This document shows positions 7,285-32,072 of a stretch of DNA of 32,203 nt, piece by piece. The notes below the pieces were generated by a model. The model saw nothing but the letters and a program-made list of their open reading frames with translations. It did no database searches and was not told where the DNA came from. The stretch lies in the NCBI GenBank assembly GCA_944391575.1, contig CALXUC010000019.1:1-32203 (forward strand), written 5' to 3'. Numbering within the stretch: position 1 is the stretch's first letter; the number at the start of each line of letters is the position of its first letter. Origin of the DNA: an uncultured Clostridia bacterium (GTDB lineage: Bacteria > Bacillota > Clostridia > TANB77 > CAG-508). A program made the position numbers and the translations under genes.

Positions 7285-7434
7285 GTTATAATTCACAACT
7301 TTATTATAAAACATATTAAAGTACTTATATATTAATATTTTTTATCAAAAAAACAAGCTTAGGTGTAACAATCCGGGTCTTTGATTGCAAAATATTAATA
7401 TATAAGTACCGCTGATATTTATTTAGCTGTGAAC
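7285..7434 (+). mobile_element. Family A hairpin element, copy A1 (150 bp, 8-bp target duplication)
   Basis: The inner arms at 7321-7340 and 7390-7409 are perfect 20-bp complements. The outer ends read GTTATAATTCAC and GTGAAC. The element is flanked by an exact 8-bp direct repeat AACTAAGA (7277-7284 and 7435-7442), a target duplication. The core contains CAATCCGGGTCTTTGATTG, which itself can fold. It lies between birA and fabD. It has no coding capacity. Confidence 0.85.
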
Positions 7435-9238: not shown

Positions 9239-9244
9239 GGTAAT

Positions 9245-9384
9245 GTTACATTTTATAGTTAAATAAATATTAGTATGCTTATATATTAATATTTTTATCA
9301 AAAACATATCTGGGGTGTAACAATCCGGGTCTTTGATTGCAAATATTAATATATAAGCACTGCAATATGTTTTATAGTAAATTA
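9245..9384 (+). mobile_element. Family A hairpin element, copy A2 (outer ends partly decayed)
   Basis: Perfect 19-bp arms at 9276-9294 and 9341-9359 are nearly identical in sequence to A1, and the core is the same CAATCCGGGTCTTTGATTG in the same orientation. The left end reads GTTACATTTTATAG; the right end is approximate and no clear target duplication is left. It lies between fabG and fabF, 6 bp after the fabG stop. Confidence 0.75.
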
Positions 9385-9406
9385 TTTAAGAAAGGTGAAT
9401 AAAAGT

Positions 9407-16501: not shown

Positions 16502-16754
16502 GTAACTGGATAATATTAGAATTATAAAAGCACTTGAAAATACTAGGATAAAATTAAAATCGAATGCACAGTAAAAGAATATTAGAAATTCTTGAGCTTT
16601 ATAATGGAAAATGTTCACGTCGAGCCTAAGCGAGGACTAAGTGAAAGGGTGCCATTATAAAGCTTTAGAATTTCAATATTCTTTTGCAAGCCGAGATTTT
16701 CAATTTTAGACTAGTATTTTCAAGTGCTTTACAAAACATATCATTATCCAGTTC
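16502..16754 (+). mobile_element. Family B hairpin element, copy B1 (253 bp)
   Basis: The ends GTAACTGGATAAT (16502-16514) and ATTATCCAGTTC (16743-16754) are inverted repeats. Long arms (16528-16555 with 16702-16730, then on to about 16606 and 16651) pair almost completely, apart from a conserved asymmetric loop: TCGAATG on one side and GCAAGCCGAGA on the other. The apical region is the conserved GTTCACGTCGAGCCTAAGCG and what follows (16613-16648). It abuts family A copy A4; the pair is flanked by AGTGATTT and GGTGATTT. Confidence 0.8.
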
Positions 16755-16895
16755 GTTGCAATTCAGCGGGCATTTAAGTAAAAGCTTGATATATAGCTAT
16801 TTGCAAGTCAAGATCCGGATTGTGTCACCCTAGCTATGTTTTGACTAAAAATAGCTATATATCAAGCTTTTAGCAAGTATATCCTGAATTGTTAC
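16755..16895 (+). mobile_element. Family A hairpin element, copy A4 (141 bp, different arms)
   Basis: Perfect 23-bp arms at 16780-16802 and 16849-16871 have a sequence unlike the arms of A1-A3, but the core (GATCCGGATTGTG next to GCAAGTCAA) matches A3 in the same orientation. The ends are GTTGCAATTCAG and CTGAATTGTTAC (10 of 12 complementary). It directly follows element B1. Confidence 0.8.
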
Positions 16896-16962
16896 GGTGA
16901 TTTTGCAATGTTACTTAGGAAAACTTGCTATTTTTCCATTTATGTTGTAAAATAATTATGTG

Positions 16963-19288: not shown

Positions 19289-20866
19289 ATGAAAAATATT
19301 TTAAATAAACATAAGGTAAAATTAATTTTTATAATAATTTTAATATTTCAAGTAATAGCAATAATATATGCAGCATCACAAAGAGTACATTTACATATGG
19401 ATGAATACTTATCTTTTGGATTTATTAGTAGTAAAGATATGTATATAAGTGCAAAAGAAGACTTTTTTAATACATGGCATACTAACGATTATTTCTATGA
19501 ATATTTGGAGATTAACGAAGACGAAGTTGAAGATTTTACACCTGTATATGAAAATCAAAAGAACGATGTTCATCCTCCATTATATTATTTGTTATTAAGA
19601 ACTTTCAATAATTTTTCAATAGATAATTTTACGATATGGTTTGCCATAGCGTTAAATGTAATATTATTCATAATATCTATGTGCCTAGTGTATTTAATAG
19701 GCAAAAAAATATTCAAAAACGAAAAGTATACTTTACTATTGTGTTTTATAGTAGGATTTAATATAGGAATAATACAAATGGCAATATATATAAGGATGTA
19801 TCAATTATTAATATTATGCGGTTTACTATTATTATATTGGCATTTATGTTATGGAAATAAGGAAAAACTGGAATTTAAAGATTGCCTGAAATTATCACTA
19901 ATAGTTGTTGCGGGCTTTTTAACACATTATTATTTTATAATATTCCTTGCAACACTATATCTTGTATATTTTATACAAAGAATAAGAGATAAGAAATTTA
20001 AAAACTTAATAAAATATACTTTATCCTTAATATTAGCAGTAGCAATAGCAACGGTTATATTTCCATATTGGATAAACCATATGTTCTCTAGTGGAAGGGG
20101 AAAAGAAGCTTATAACTTTTTATTAATAAGACCTTTGTATTTAGGGACTCTATTATATGAAGGTTTTATAGTTTTAGCTAAACGAGGTTTTAATTATACA
20201 TTATATGCGTTTTTATTAATTATATTAATATTTATGATTCTTACAATTTATTATAAGTTAAAAAATAAAGATAAGTTACCAAAAGATCGCAATATAGTAT
20301 ATGTTTTATATCCAACTTTGCTTTATTTTGTAATAATATTGTTTATTATACCTTATGGAGAAATAAGATATTTTTCTATAATTTTAGTAAATATAATAAT
20401 TTTATTGTTATATTATTTAAAGAAATTTGGAGAATATGTCTTAAAAAATGAAAAATCTTGTTTTAATATTATTTCAATTATATGCTTACTTACTACTTTT
20501 ATAAATCTTTTAAATATTAACGATAATTTGTATACGTACAAAGATAATAGAAACGCTTTGGAAAATATAGACGACACTTGTAGTTTAATATACGTTTATG
20601 GTGATAAAAAAGGTGCGTGGTACGATTCGTATGTAGTATTTTTGAAATATAAAAATAGTATTATTTTAGAATATAATGAAAATATAGTAGAAGATATTAG
20701 TAATGTGATTAAGGAGAAAAATTTAAAATCGAATGAATATGTCATTGGCACAGATAAGGCTGTGTATATAGATTTAAGAGAAAAGTTATTATCTACTCCA
20801 GAATATGAAAATTTAGAATTTTCTTATTATATTGGAAGAAGTGGCTTCTTGCAAAATTTATGTTAA
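19289..20866 (+). CDS. GT-C fold membrane glycosyltransferase (ArnT/PMT-like, family 39-like)
   Basis: The protein has 525 residues with about ten hydrophobic segments. An N-terminal membrane helix (about 10-30) is followed by HLHMDEYLSFGF, where the acidic pair is in the position of the catalytic Asp/Glu of polyprenyl-phosphate-dependent GT-C enzymes, then an extracytoplasmic loop with VHPPLYYLLLR. A hydrophilic C-terminal part (about 425-525) lies outside the membrane region. It probably moves a sugar from a lipid carrier onto a surface polymer or protein; the acceptor is unknown. Element B2 begins inside its last codons and supplies the TAA stop (see findings). Confidence 0.75.
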   Translation: MKNILNKHKVKLIFIIILIFQVIAIIYAASQRVHLHMDEYLSFGFISSKDMYISAKEDFFNTWHTNDYFYEYLEINEDEVEDFTPVYENQKNDVHPPLYYLLLRTFNNFSIDNFTIWFAIALNVILFIISMCLVYLIGKKIFKNEKYTLLLCFIVGFNIGIIQMAIYIRMYQLLILCGLLLLYWHLCYGNKEKLEFKDCLKLSLIVVAGFLTHYYFIIFLATLYLVYFIQRIRDKKFKNLIKYTLSLILAVAIATVIFPYWINHMFSSGRGKEAYNFLLIRPLYLGTLLYEGFIVLAKRGFNYTLYAFLLIILIFMILTIYYKLKNKDKLPKDRNIVYVLYPTLLYFVIILFIIPYGEIRYFSIILVNIIILLLYYLKKFGEYVLKNEKSCFNIISIICLLTTFINLLNINDNLYTYKDNRNALENIDDTCSLIYVYGDKKGAWYDSYVVFLKYKNSIILEYNENIVEDISNVIKEKNLKSNEYVIGTDKAVYIDLREKLLSTPEYENLEFSYYIGRSGFLQNLC

Positions 20867-21115
20867 AGAATAATGGTCATTCTATTAAATCATTAGAAAA
20901 TACTAGTATAAAATAGTAAATCTCGGTTTGCAAAAATATAAAGAAATTCTAAAGTTTAATTACAGGAACCTTTCACTTAGTCCTCGCTTAGGCTCGACGT
21001 GAACATTCCCTATAATTAAACTTAAGAATTTCTAATATATTTTTACTGCACATTCGATTTATATTTTATACTAGTATTTTCTAATGATTATAGATTTTAC
21101 CTATTATCTTGTAAC
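20862..21115 (+). mobile_element. Family B hairpin element, copy B2 (254 bp, inverted, 9-bp target duplication)
   Basis: It is inverted relative to B1 and B3: the apical conserved block reads CACTTAGTCCTCGCTTAGGC and the asymmetric loop is TCTCGGTTTGC against GCACATTCGA. The ends are GTTAAAGAATAATGG and CTATTATCTTGTAAC. It is flanked by an exact 9-bp direct repeat AAAATTTAT (20853-20861, 21116-21124). It lies between the GT-C gene and asp23. Confidence 0.85.
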
Positions 21116-23035: not shown

Positions 23036-23190
23036 GTTACAATTTACAACCTTTATTATAAAACATATTAAAGTACTTATATATTAATATTTTGCAATCA
23101 AAGACCCGGATTGTTTGCCTTAAGCTTGTTTTTTGATAAAAAATATTAATATATAAGTACACTAATATGTATTTAGATGTAAATTGTAAC
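23036..23190 (+). mobile_element. Family A hairpin element, copy A3 (155 bp, inverted)
   Basis: The terminal inverted repeats GTTACAATTTACA (23036-23048) and TGTAAATTGTAAC (23178-23190) are exact, as are 21-bp inner arms at 23073-23093 and 23140-23160. The core is the reverse complement of A1 (CAATCAAAGACCCGGATTG). Flanks AAATAAAA (23028-23035) and AAATAAAT (23191-23198) look like a target duplication with one change. It lies between nusB and xseA. Confidence 0.88.
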
Positions 23191-23229
23191 AAATAAATTA
23201 ATAAAAATAATTTTTAGAAAGTGAAAGTT

Positions 23230-26079: not shown

Positions 26080-26103
26080 CGGTTATAATAAAGTAGAATG
26101 AAT

Positions 26104-26172
26104 ATATTATATTATTTCTATTCCGAAAAAATGAAAAAAACTTGACTTTTCGGAATAGAAATAATATAATAT
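26104..26172 (+). promoter_or_regulatory. Palindromic promoter/operator of the DUF4143 ATPase gene
   Basis: Arms at 26104-26129 and 26147-26172 are perfect 26-bp complements around a 17-nt loop. A promoter lies over the right arm: TTGACT at 26142-26147, 17 bp, TATAAT at 26165-26170. The palindrome core is TCTATTCCGAAAA. A near copy stands at 31185-31247 without a gene. Confidence 0.8.
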
Positions 26173-26188
26173 TTTTGAGGTGTTTAGT

Positions 26189-31153: not shown

Positions 31154-31184
31154 GATTTTCAAAAATATAAGTATAAAAAATATC

Positions 31185-31247
31185 TTATATTATTTCTATT
31201 CCGAAAAAATGAAAAAAATTGAGTTTTCGGAATAAAAATAATATAAT
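31185..31247 (+). promoter_or_regulatory. Orphan copy of the palindromic promoter
   Basis: Arms at 31185-31207 and 31224-31246 are complementary with one mismatch and nearly identical to the palindrome at 26104-26172, including TTGAGT (31219-31224), 17 bp, TATAAT (31242-31247). Downstream, TTTTCGATGTGTTAATTC resembles the leader of the ATPase gene, but no start codon or ORF follows; element B3 begins at 31270. Confidence 0.7.
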
Positions 31248-31269
31248 TTTTTCGATGTGTTAATTCTTA

Positions 31270-31522
31270 GTTACTAAATAATGTTCTTTCTATTAAATCC
31301 CTAGAAAATACTAGGATAAAATATAAATCGAATGTGCAGGAAAAATATATTAGAAATTCTTAAGCTTAATTAGAGGGAATGTTCACGTCGAGCCTAAGCG
31401 AGGACCAAGTGAAAGGTTCCTGTAATTAGGCTTTAGAATTTCTATATATTTTTACAAGCCGAGATTTACATTTTATCCTAGTATTTTCTAAGGATTTATC
31501 CAATATACCATTATCCAGTAAC
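31270..31522 (+). mobile_element. Family B hairpin element, copy B3 (253 bp, 8-bp target duplication)
   Basis: The ends GTTACTAAATAATG (31270-31283) and CATTATCCAGTAAC (31509-31522) pair at 12 of 14 positions. The flanks are an exact 8-bp repeat AATTCTTA (31262-31269, 31523-31530). It has the same internal layout and orientation as B1: TCGAATG opposite AAGCCGAGA and the apical block GTTCACGTCGAGCCTAAGCG. It fills the gap between the second lectin-like gene and marR. Confidence 0.9.
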
Positions 31523-31540
31523 AATTCTTACTATTATTTT

Positions 31541-31634: not shown

Positions 31635-32072
31635 ATGGAGAAAAATATAGCAAATGAATTAAAAAAACTAGATATTGAAATAGGAAAAAAATTATTTTCC
31701 ATTTCTAAAAAAAATAAAATAGAAACCGTCCCCAGTCCATTGCAAGCAAGAATAATCGATTTTCTAATAATAAATCAAGAAAAAGAAGATATATGCCAAA
31801 AAGACTTAGAAGAACATTTTAATGTTAGTAAAGCAACAATATCAGGTGCTTTGCAGATAATGGAAAATAATGGAATTATAAAAAGGGTAATTGCAAAAGA
31901 AGATGCAAGAAGTAAAAAAATAATTTTAACAGAAAAAAGCAAAAAAGCGCATAAAGAAATGTATATTATTTTCAAAAATTTAGACGAAGAACTAAAAAAA
32001 GGAATATCAAAAGAAGAATTAGAAATATTTTATAACATAATAGAAAAATTAAAGAATAATTTAAGAAACTAA
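31635..32072 (+). CDS. MarR family transcriptional regulator
   Basis: The protein has 145 residues. Winged helix: SPLQARIIDFLIINQEKEDICQKDLEEHFNVSKATISGALQIMENNGIIKRVIAKEDARSKKIILTEK is the usual MarR core (about 33-100), followed by a dimerisation helix. RBS AGGGGG lies upstream. It is preceded by a promoter carrying paired operator-like repeats, which suggests autorepression. The gene that begins at 32189 is probably its main target, as MarR genes often precede transporters. Confidence 0.9.
   Translation: MEKNIANELKKLDIEIGKKLFSISKKNKIETVPSPLQARIIDFLIINQEKEDICQKDLEEHFNVSKATISGALQIMENNGIIKRVIAKEDARSKKIILTEKSKKAHKEMYIIFKNLDEELKKGISKEELEIFYNIIEKLKNNLRN

Follow-up and report, generated by a model that had tools for sequence, protein, structure and literature searches.

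A covarying hairpin core inside MITE-like elements of a family of Clostridia

Hairpin elements at the locus

The window, by which we mean the whole 32,203-nucleotide stretch of DNA analysed here, is contig C19 of an 84-contig, 1.84-Mb assembly of an uncultured Clostridia bacterium. It holds three copies of a MITE-like hairpin, B1, B2, and B3 (Table 1). Elements of this B family contain no ORF and no transposase gene and occur as many dispersed intergenic copies. The initial annotation described B1, B2, and B3 as repeated hairpins of about 253 bp with exact duplications of 8 bp around B3 and 9 bp around B2; the lengths were confirmed from the coordinates, and both duplications were verified. 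The fold predicted for B3 has an energy of -101.4 kcal/mol, compared with a mean of -43 kcal/mol for dinucleotide shuffles (z = -13), and the hairpin is therefore not a product of chance. Each element is composed of two parts. The inner ~125-145 nt form the core, which is enclosed by a plain inverted repeat of DNA with GTTACTGGATAATG-type termini. DNA and model searches together recovered at least 19 cores in the genome to which the window belongs, in addition to several decayed half elements (L022, L023, L025, L026, and L027) and contig-end fragments.

Table 1. Features of the window, with coordinates counted from its first nucleotide
Feature	Position	Strand	Remarks
B3, MITE-like hairpin	31270-31522	+ (core orientation)	253 bp; exact 8-bp duplication
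B3 left target-site duplication	31262-31269	.	AATTCTTA
B3 right target-site duplication	31523-31530	.	AATTCTTA
B3 left terminal inverted repeat	31270-31283	+	GTTACTAAATAATG
B3 right terminal inverted repeat	31509-31522	-	GTTACTGGATAATG, as read on the - strand
B3 core	31325-31467	+	143 nt; match to covariance model R1, 160.5 bits
B3 internal loop, 5' side	31375-31381	+	variant form GGGAATG; invariant across the wider family
B3 internal loop, 3' side	31414-31420	+	variant AGGTTCC; family form AGGGTGCC
B2	20862-21115	-	inverted, 254 bp; exact 9-bp duplication AAAATTTAT on both sides
B2 core	20918-21060	-	
B1	16502-16753	+	without duplication
B1 core	16557-16699	+	canonical invariant loop
C-type hairpin	about 16755-16907		directly adjoins B1
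Three-copy hairpin	7300-7409, 9244-9389, 23044-23191		
Promoter-like site	31219-31247	+	TTGAGT-17-TATAAT, 10 of 12; just upstream of B3
Repeated ~93-bp block	26091-26184, 31169-31261		
MarR-family gene	31635-32072		downstream of B3

Other hairpins lie near the B elements. One, presumably the family A of the initial annotation, is present in three copies; its centre (ACAATCCGGGTCTTTGATTGCAAA) is conserved, and its arms are long and AT-rich. The right end of B1 abuts a second hairpin element, of the C type, with ends GTTGCAATTCAG, arms CTTGATATATAGCTATTT, and centre GTCAAGATCCGGATTGTGTCACCCTAGCTATGTTTTGAC. Its centre is like that of family A, and its arms hold the B core elsewhere in the genome (L288-L292).

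B3 starts 22 bp downstream of the promoter-like TATAAT box and may be transcribed as the + strand. Promoter-like sites of this kind are no commoner than in shuffled sequence, and the repeated block that contains this one is the stronger clue. This ~93-bp block, which occurs twice in the window, includes the promoter-like site and a palindrome (TATTCCGAAAA...TTTTCGGAATA). One copy precedes an AAA_14/DUF4143 gene, and the other precedes B3 together with the MarR-family gene. The block is possibly a shared operator.

Folding and conservation of the core

Covariation was scored on 106 copies (104 distinct cores). In this alignment, which was fitted to the model and thereby favours structure, standard pairs occupy 92.5% of cells, compared with 72.2% in shuffled and at most 55.7% in slid controls. 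Changes on both sides are found in 42 of the 47 pairs of the core, and compensatory cells number 904 versus 258 after shuffling. The covariation score (0.488) exceeds both controls (0.148 shuffled; at most 0.075 slid).

A model-free check, in which pairs were counted in a fixed register running outward from the internal loop, reveals a difference between the strands. G.U outnumbers A.C by 35 to 5 in the inner helix and by about 96 to 1 in the apical stem. The outer arms, in a Watson-Crick-only alignment, contain 104 G.U and 121 A.C. The imbalance persists among 44 cluster representatives (core, 47 G.U versus 4 A.C; outer arm, 20 versus 15; p = 1.7e-4), although it is not significant for the inner helix alone after clustering (12 versus 3). 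These data support selection on the core as a folded single strand, the one that reads CACGTCGAGCCTAAGCG in the window copies. Evolution as a folded strand is concluded because the core combines covariation, strand-specific tolerance of G.U, and loop bases that are invariant across more than 20 genera, and the earlier proposal of a mobile element with a structured, RNA-like core and conserved unpaired loops is supported. RNA and folded single-stranded DNA cannot be told apart by strand asymmetry alone, since G.T versus A.C would look alike in the latter. Judged from its evolution, the core probably acts at the RNA level.

Loop conservation was assessed on 25 copies found by the model and not by the loop pattern. 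In these copies the base of the apical hairpin is near-invariant (5' GG-AAANNG-UUC, 3' GRA-AGGGUG-CC), and the top-base frequency reaches 0.99 in the 3' loop compared with 0.55 in helices 1 and 3, figures that retain some bias from a model trained on own-genome copies with the same loop. This 6x6 purine-rich internal loop, at the foot of the tip, is the most conserved part of the core. The sequence of helix 4a is kept too (UUAGAAWUUCUU in each arm), helices 1 and 3 vary freely as pairs, and conservation of the outer loop (GAAUG / CGA) is moderate.

The apical tips are interchangeable and include CUUGN pentaloops, GCGA or GUAA tetraloops, and triloops. A longer tip, GUC-GA-GC...GC-GAG-GAC, displays a compensatory change of its own, from GUC/GAC to GCC/GGC. 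This subfamily-specific tip is the ~36-nt apical block that the initial annotation regarded as nearly invariant, together with the outer loop. Both are indeed near-invariant across B1-B3; however, the wider sample shifts the conservation to the 6x6 loop. The apical block (CACGTCGAGCCTAAGCG) is one of many swappable tips and varies freely outside one subfamily, but the internal loop beneath it does not.

The window copies differ from one another in this loop. In B2, B3, and two further copies from the own genome, the invariant loop is replaced by a variant, GGGAAUG / AAGGUUCC, in which extra pairs are possible; B2 and B3 read AAGGTTCC where the family loop reads AAGGGTGCC. B1 keeps the canonical 6x6 loop. 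B3 may therefore be an atypical copy.

Arms, ends, and distribution

The core is found within at least four types of arms in its own genome. These are the B-type arms (GTTACTGGATAATG ... GAAAATACTAGGATAAAAT), the arms at L020 (ends GTTTAGTATACATT, 9-bp duplication TTTATATAA), those at L024, and C-type arms (TTGATATATAGCTATTT-like) at L288, L289, and L290 and at the contig ends L291 and L292. Among the sequence fetched, an unrelated core, GTCAAGACCCGGATTGTGTCACCCTAGCTATGTTTTGAC, lies inside the C-type arms of seven other distinct elements. Evolutionary change in the arms is symmetric, as in DNA inverted repeats, whereas the core evolves as one folded strand. Nested palindromes are present at L124, L125, and L130, where a core-bearing, GTTAGAGTAGGC-ended element is centred in longer flanking inverted repeats (e.g., TTTGACAAAAATTTCCTAATAATTTGGTAT).

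The elements have inverted ends of the GTT(A/G/C)C type, with GTTAC-type ends at both sides. Duplications of 8 bp flank B3, L009, L205, L215, and L139, and duplications of 9 bp flank B2 and L020. A screen for terminal inverted repeats (TIRs) together with a duplication was passed by 44 of 132 elements, some of which are inner palindromes, and by 2 of 133 cross-paired controls. Ends of the GTTACTGGATAATG type were detected in 32 of 195 family genomes around many unrelated interiors and therefore represent a general MITE wrapper. GTTAC-type ends also wrap species-specific multi-copy hairpins with other centres, such as CCTAATAAAATGTATATTTT and GCATAATATTTAATGGCTCGT, at L282, L276, and L277 (G179), L268-L272 (G220), and L284 (G058). 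Comparison of insertion sites yielded a single weak case of an empty orthologous site, in the own assembly (L048 versus L047, which are paralogous small contigs); the orthologous spacer L257 versus L285 holds a different GTTAC MITE.

Duplications of 8-9 bp and inverted ends point to a DDE transposase, as is established for such anatomy. The defining features of a MITE were found where they could be tested, namely TIRs, a target duplication, and multiple copies without a transposase; a full insertion sequence (IS) was not recovered. The initial annotation suggested seeking the partner transposase through shared ends. Four contigs (C17, C38, C42, and C43) break off ~75 nt inside a repeat that opens with the same 30 bases, GTTACTGGATAATGGTTTTTAATAAAAAAA, and the stretch that follows exists in two versions at the broken ends. 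Such breaks are what a multi-copy IS would be expected to leave in an assembly, and this IS is probably the mobiliser. The search by shared ends produced identical, IS-like 30-bp termini at four contig ends but not a transposase gene. Only ordinary genes lie beside the TIR-bearing loci, and no IS pair with a duplication was found among the fetched loci. The IS256 family was rejected as the partner, as the IS256-family genes examined in these genomes end otherwise (GAGAGTATAG...).

The core is widespread within one family. R1, a covariance model built from 15 own-genome cores, matched 82 of 292 family genomes and 20 of 39 genera, with E-values down to 1e-24 beyond the own genome. R2, built from 106 cores, matched 126 of 287 genomes of the order in 23 genera, all but one within the same family. 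Sampling 391 genomes across the class gave eight positives, all from this family and none from others, which serves as a specificity control. The matches listed in a loop-pattern scan of named genomes were all metagenome-assembled genomes of uncultured Clostridia type. The core pattern was present in one viral contig; the TIR patterns tried were found in none. The genome scan by covariance model that the initial annotation proposed thus recovered the core from more than 20 genera of one Clostridia family, and the accompanying comparison with Rfam, at the gathering cutoff and in a permissive search (E<=5), matched the element to no known RNA family. The element is undescribed in the literature searched, to which the supplements of a report on thousands of microbiome structured RNAs (PMC8040213) did not belong. 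A coding function of the core was rejected on inspection, since the copies do not preserve a common reading frame.

Of 125 cores examined, none was located within an ORF, and cores sit nearer to gene 3' ends. Between tandem genes, the + strand of the core runs antisense to the genes 52 times and sense 26 times (p=0.004). This modest 2:1 avoidance of the sense orientation would be expected if the + strand core affected its own transcript, with an insertion preference as the alternative.

Interpretation and related elements

The best explanation is a DDE-mobilised MITE that carries a separable protein-binding or processing RNA hairpin, a reading to which we assign a probability of about 0.55. 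An IS with matching ends would move the wrapper arms in trans, and the transcribed core would form an RNA hairpin that is bound by a protein or processed by an endonuclease. Some ERIC and Correia insertions have been reported to affect the host transcript (PMC3049150; PMC2649163). The core hairpin could similarly change the fate of the transcript that contains it, with a function comparable to that of Correia or ERIC repeats within mRNAs, and such an effect would account for the depletion of the + orientation within co-directional genes. From its appearance, the invariant internal loop is predicted to be the protein-binding or processing motif. Counting against this explanation, a large part of the helix 4a sequence is conserved, which would be expected of a double-stranded binding site. 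Simple transposition of the wrapper leaves the presence of cores at the exact centres of different palindromes unexplained. We tentatively consider it possible that the core is a mobile structured-RNA or folded single-stranded DNA module that hitches between mini-transposon families, is placed at palindrome centres, and has a putative dedicated binding protein. If so, it would have its own conserved motif in more than 100 species of one Clostridia family.

The main rival is recognition of a folded single DNA strand. Here the core would serve a recombinase or transposase, in an attC- or REP-like manner, and would itself be mobile, inserting at palindrome centres; its mobility would explain why it sits amid several unrelated arm pairs. 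The same core in several arm types, two unrelated cores in the C-type arms of one genome, variable paired arms with conserved unpaired bases, the asymmetry between strands, and intergenic sites in both orientations all fit this proposal. However, the own genome and 29 of 126 core-bearing genomes lack Y1/HUH transposases, the most obvious enzymes to act on a folded single-strand substrate, and Y1 shows no significant enrichment with the core (97/126 versus 110/161, p=0.11). Most of the long, RAYT-like Y1 genes examined have unrelated GGGGACGTTTCC/GGGGACGGTCC repeats on their flanks, and only 2 of 12 long-Y1 loci have the core within the fetched 4.4-4.5 kb. Y1/RAYT was therefore rejected as the mobiliser. 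A 125-nt target also far exceeds known REP hairpins, and no clean core-only junction with its own duplication was found, which makes recognition of folded DNA doubtful.

If the core were a neutral passenger of a recently spread MITE, hairpin-mediated repair (template switching), not selection, would maintain its pairing. Near-perfect hairpins are common among MITEs, decayed halves are numerous among the copies, and the invariant loop is altered in B2 and B3. Yet repair would hit arms and core alike, while only the core shows invariant unpaired bases and strand-specific G.U, and it is recognisable over more than 20 genera whose arms are unrelated. Neutrality is thus rather unlikely. Alternatively, the conserved centre could be needed for transposition as the place where the element's own transposase, or a DNA-bending protein of the host, binds. 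The near-palindromic helix 4a (TTAGAAWTTCTT on both arms), conserved in both sequence and pairing, would suit a duplex site. Such a site predicts no G.U/A.C asymmetry, though, and the same core occurs in elements with different ends, and presumably different transposases, while other GTTACTGGATAATG-ended elements lack it; a DNA site is accordingly quite improbable. A self-cleaving or otherwise catalytic RNA, which the initial annotation had raised, would be consistent with a long hairpin that has conserved internal loops at fixed spacing, and the lack of an Rfam match leaves room for a new class. This is nonetheless very unlikely, given that no known ribozyme family matched at E<=5, no junction is predicted, and the most conserved unpaired bases reside in one purine-rich internal loop of a type that is often protein-bound.

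In this element, the mobile part of a MITE and its selected, RNA-like part can be distinguished by their evolution. The 6x6 purine-rich loop and the covariance models provide a defined, testable motif, and the core may represent a large unannotated structured-RNA family of gut Clostridia. If a host protein binds the core, it would be a bacterial parallel to SINEs borrowing host RNA-binding machinery.

In its mode of action, the B element appears to come closest to Correia elements and to the BOX and bcr repeats. Its new aspects are the evolutionary split between wrapper and core, the sharing of one core across wrappers, and its breadth in one bacterial family. The CREE/NEMIS elements of Neisseria are likewise small, non-autonomous mobile hairpins with inverted repeats around a conserved core and intergenic dispersal, and the transcribed Correia (CREE) hairpin is bound and cut by RNase III (PMC2649163). 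Unlike CREE as described, the B element has a strongly covarying core, an invariant internal loop, and a core that is common to different ends; it is also set apart by a different host phylum and by the lack of an Rfam link. The BOX, RUP, and SPRITE repeats of Streptococcus pneumoniae are AT-rich and modular, are predicted to form stem-loops when transcribed, are likely MITEs, and are enriched between convergent genes (PMC3049150). The B element shares this AT-rich, modular stem-loop MITE character. However, BOX modules are sub-units inside one family, whereas the B core occurs in several wrappers across genera. In the Bacillus cereus group, bcr1-bcr3 resemble MITEs and are frequently transcribed within UTRs, and bcr10 and bcr18 have conserved structures and are predicted to act as RNA (PMC3446304). 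In that description, MITE-like and RNA-like traits belong to different bcr families, while the B element combines both in separable parts.

REP/RAYT systems (REPtrons and TIRtrons) also resemble the B element, as they include palindromic intergenic repeats with conserved unpaired bases, and Y1 transposases are present in many of the genomes surveyed here. REPs are 20-40 bp long and have a GTAG or CGTC tag (PMC3733652). The B core falls outside this definition, since it is ~125-145 nt long, lacks the tag, conserves other bases, and is present in genomes without detectable Y1. RAYT-like Y1 transposase genes of about 262-303 aa were observed at L297-L305 and L307, mostly with GGGGACGTTTCC/GGGGACGGTCC-type inverted repeats. 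These GGGGACG-type repeats resemble the GGGGWSAS TIR motif of PMC3733652.
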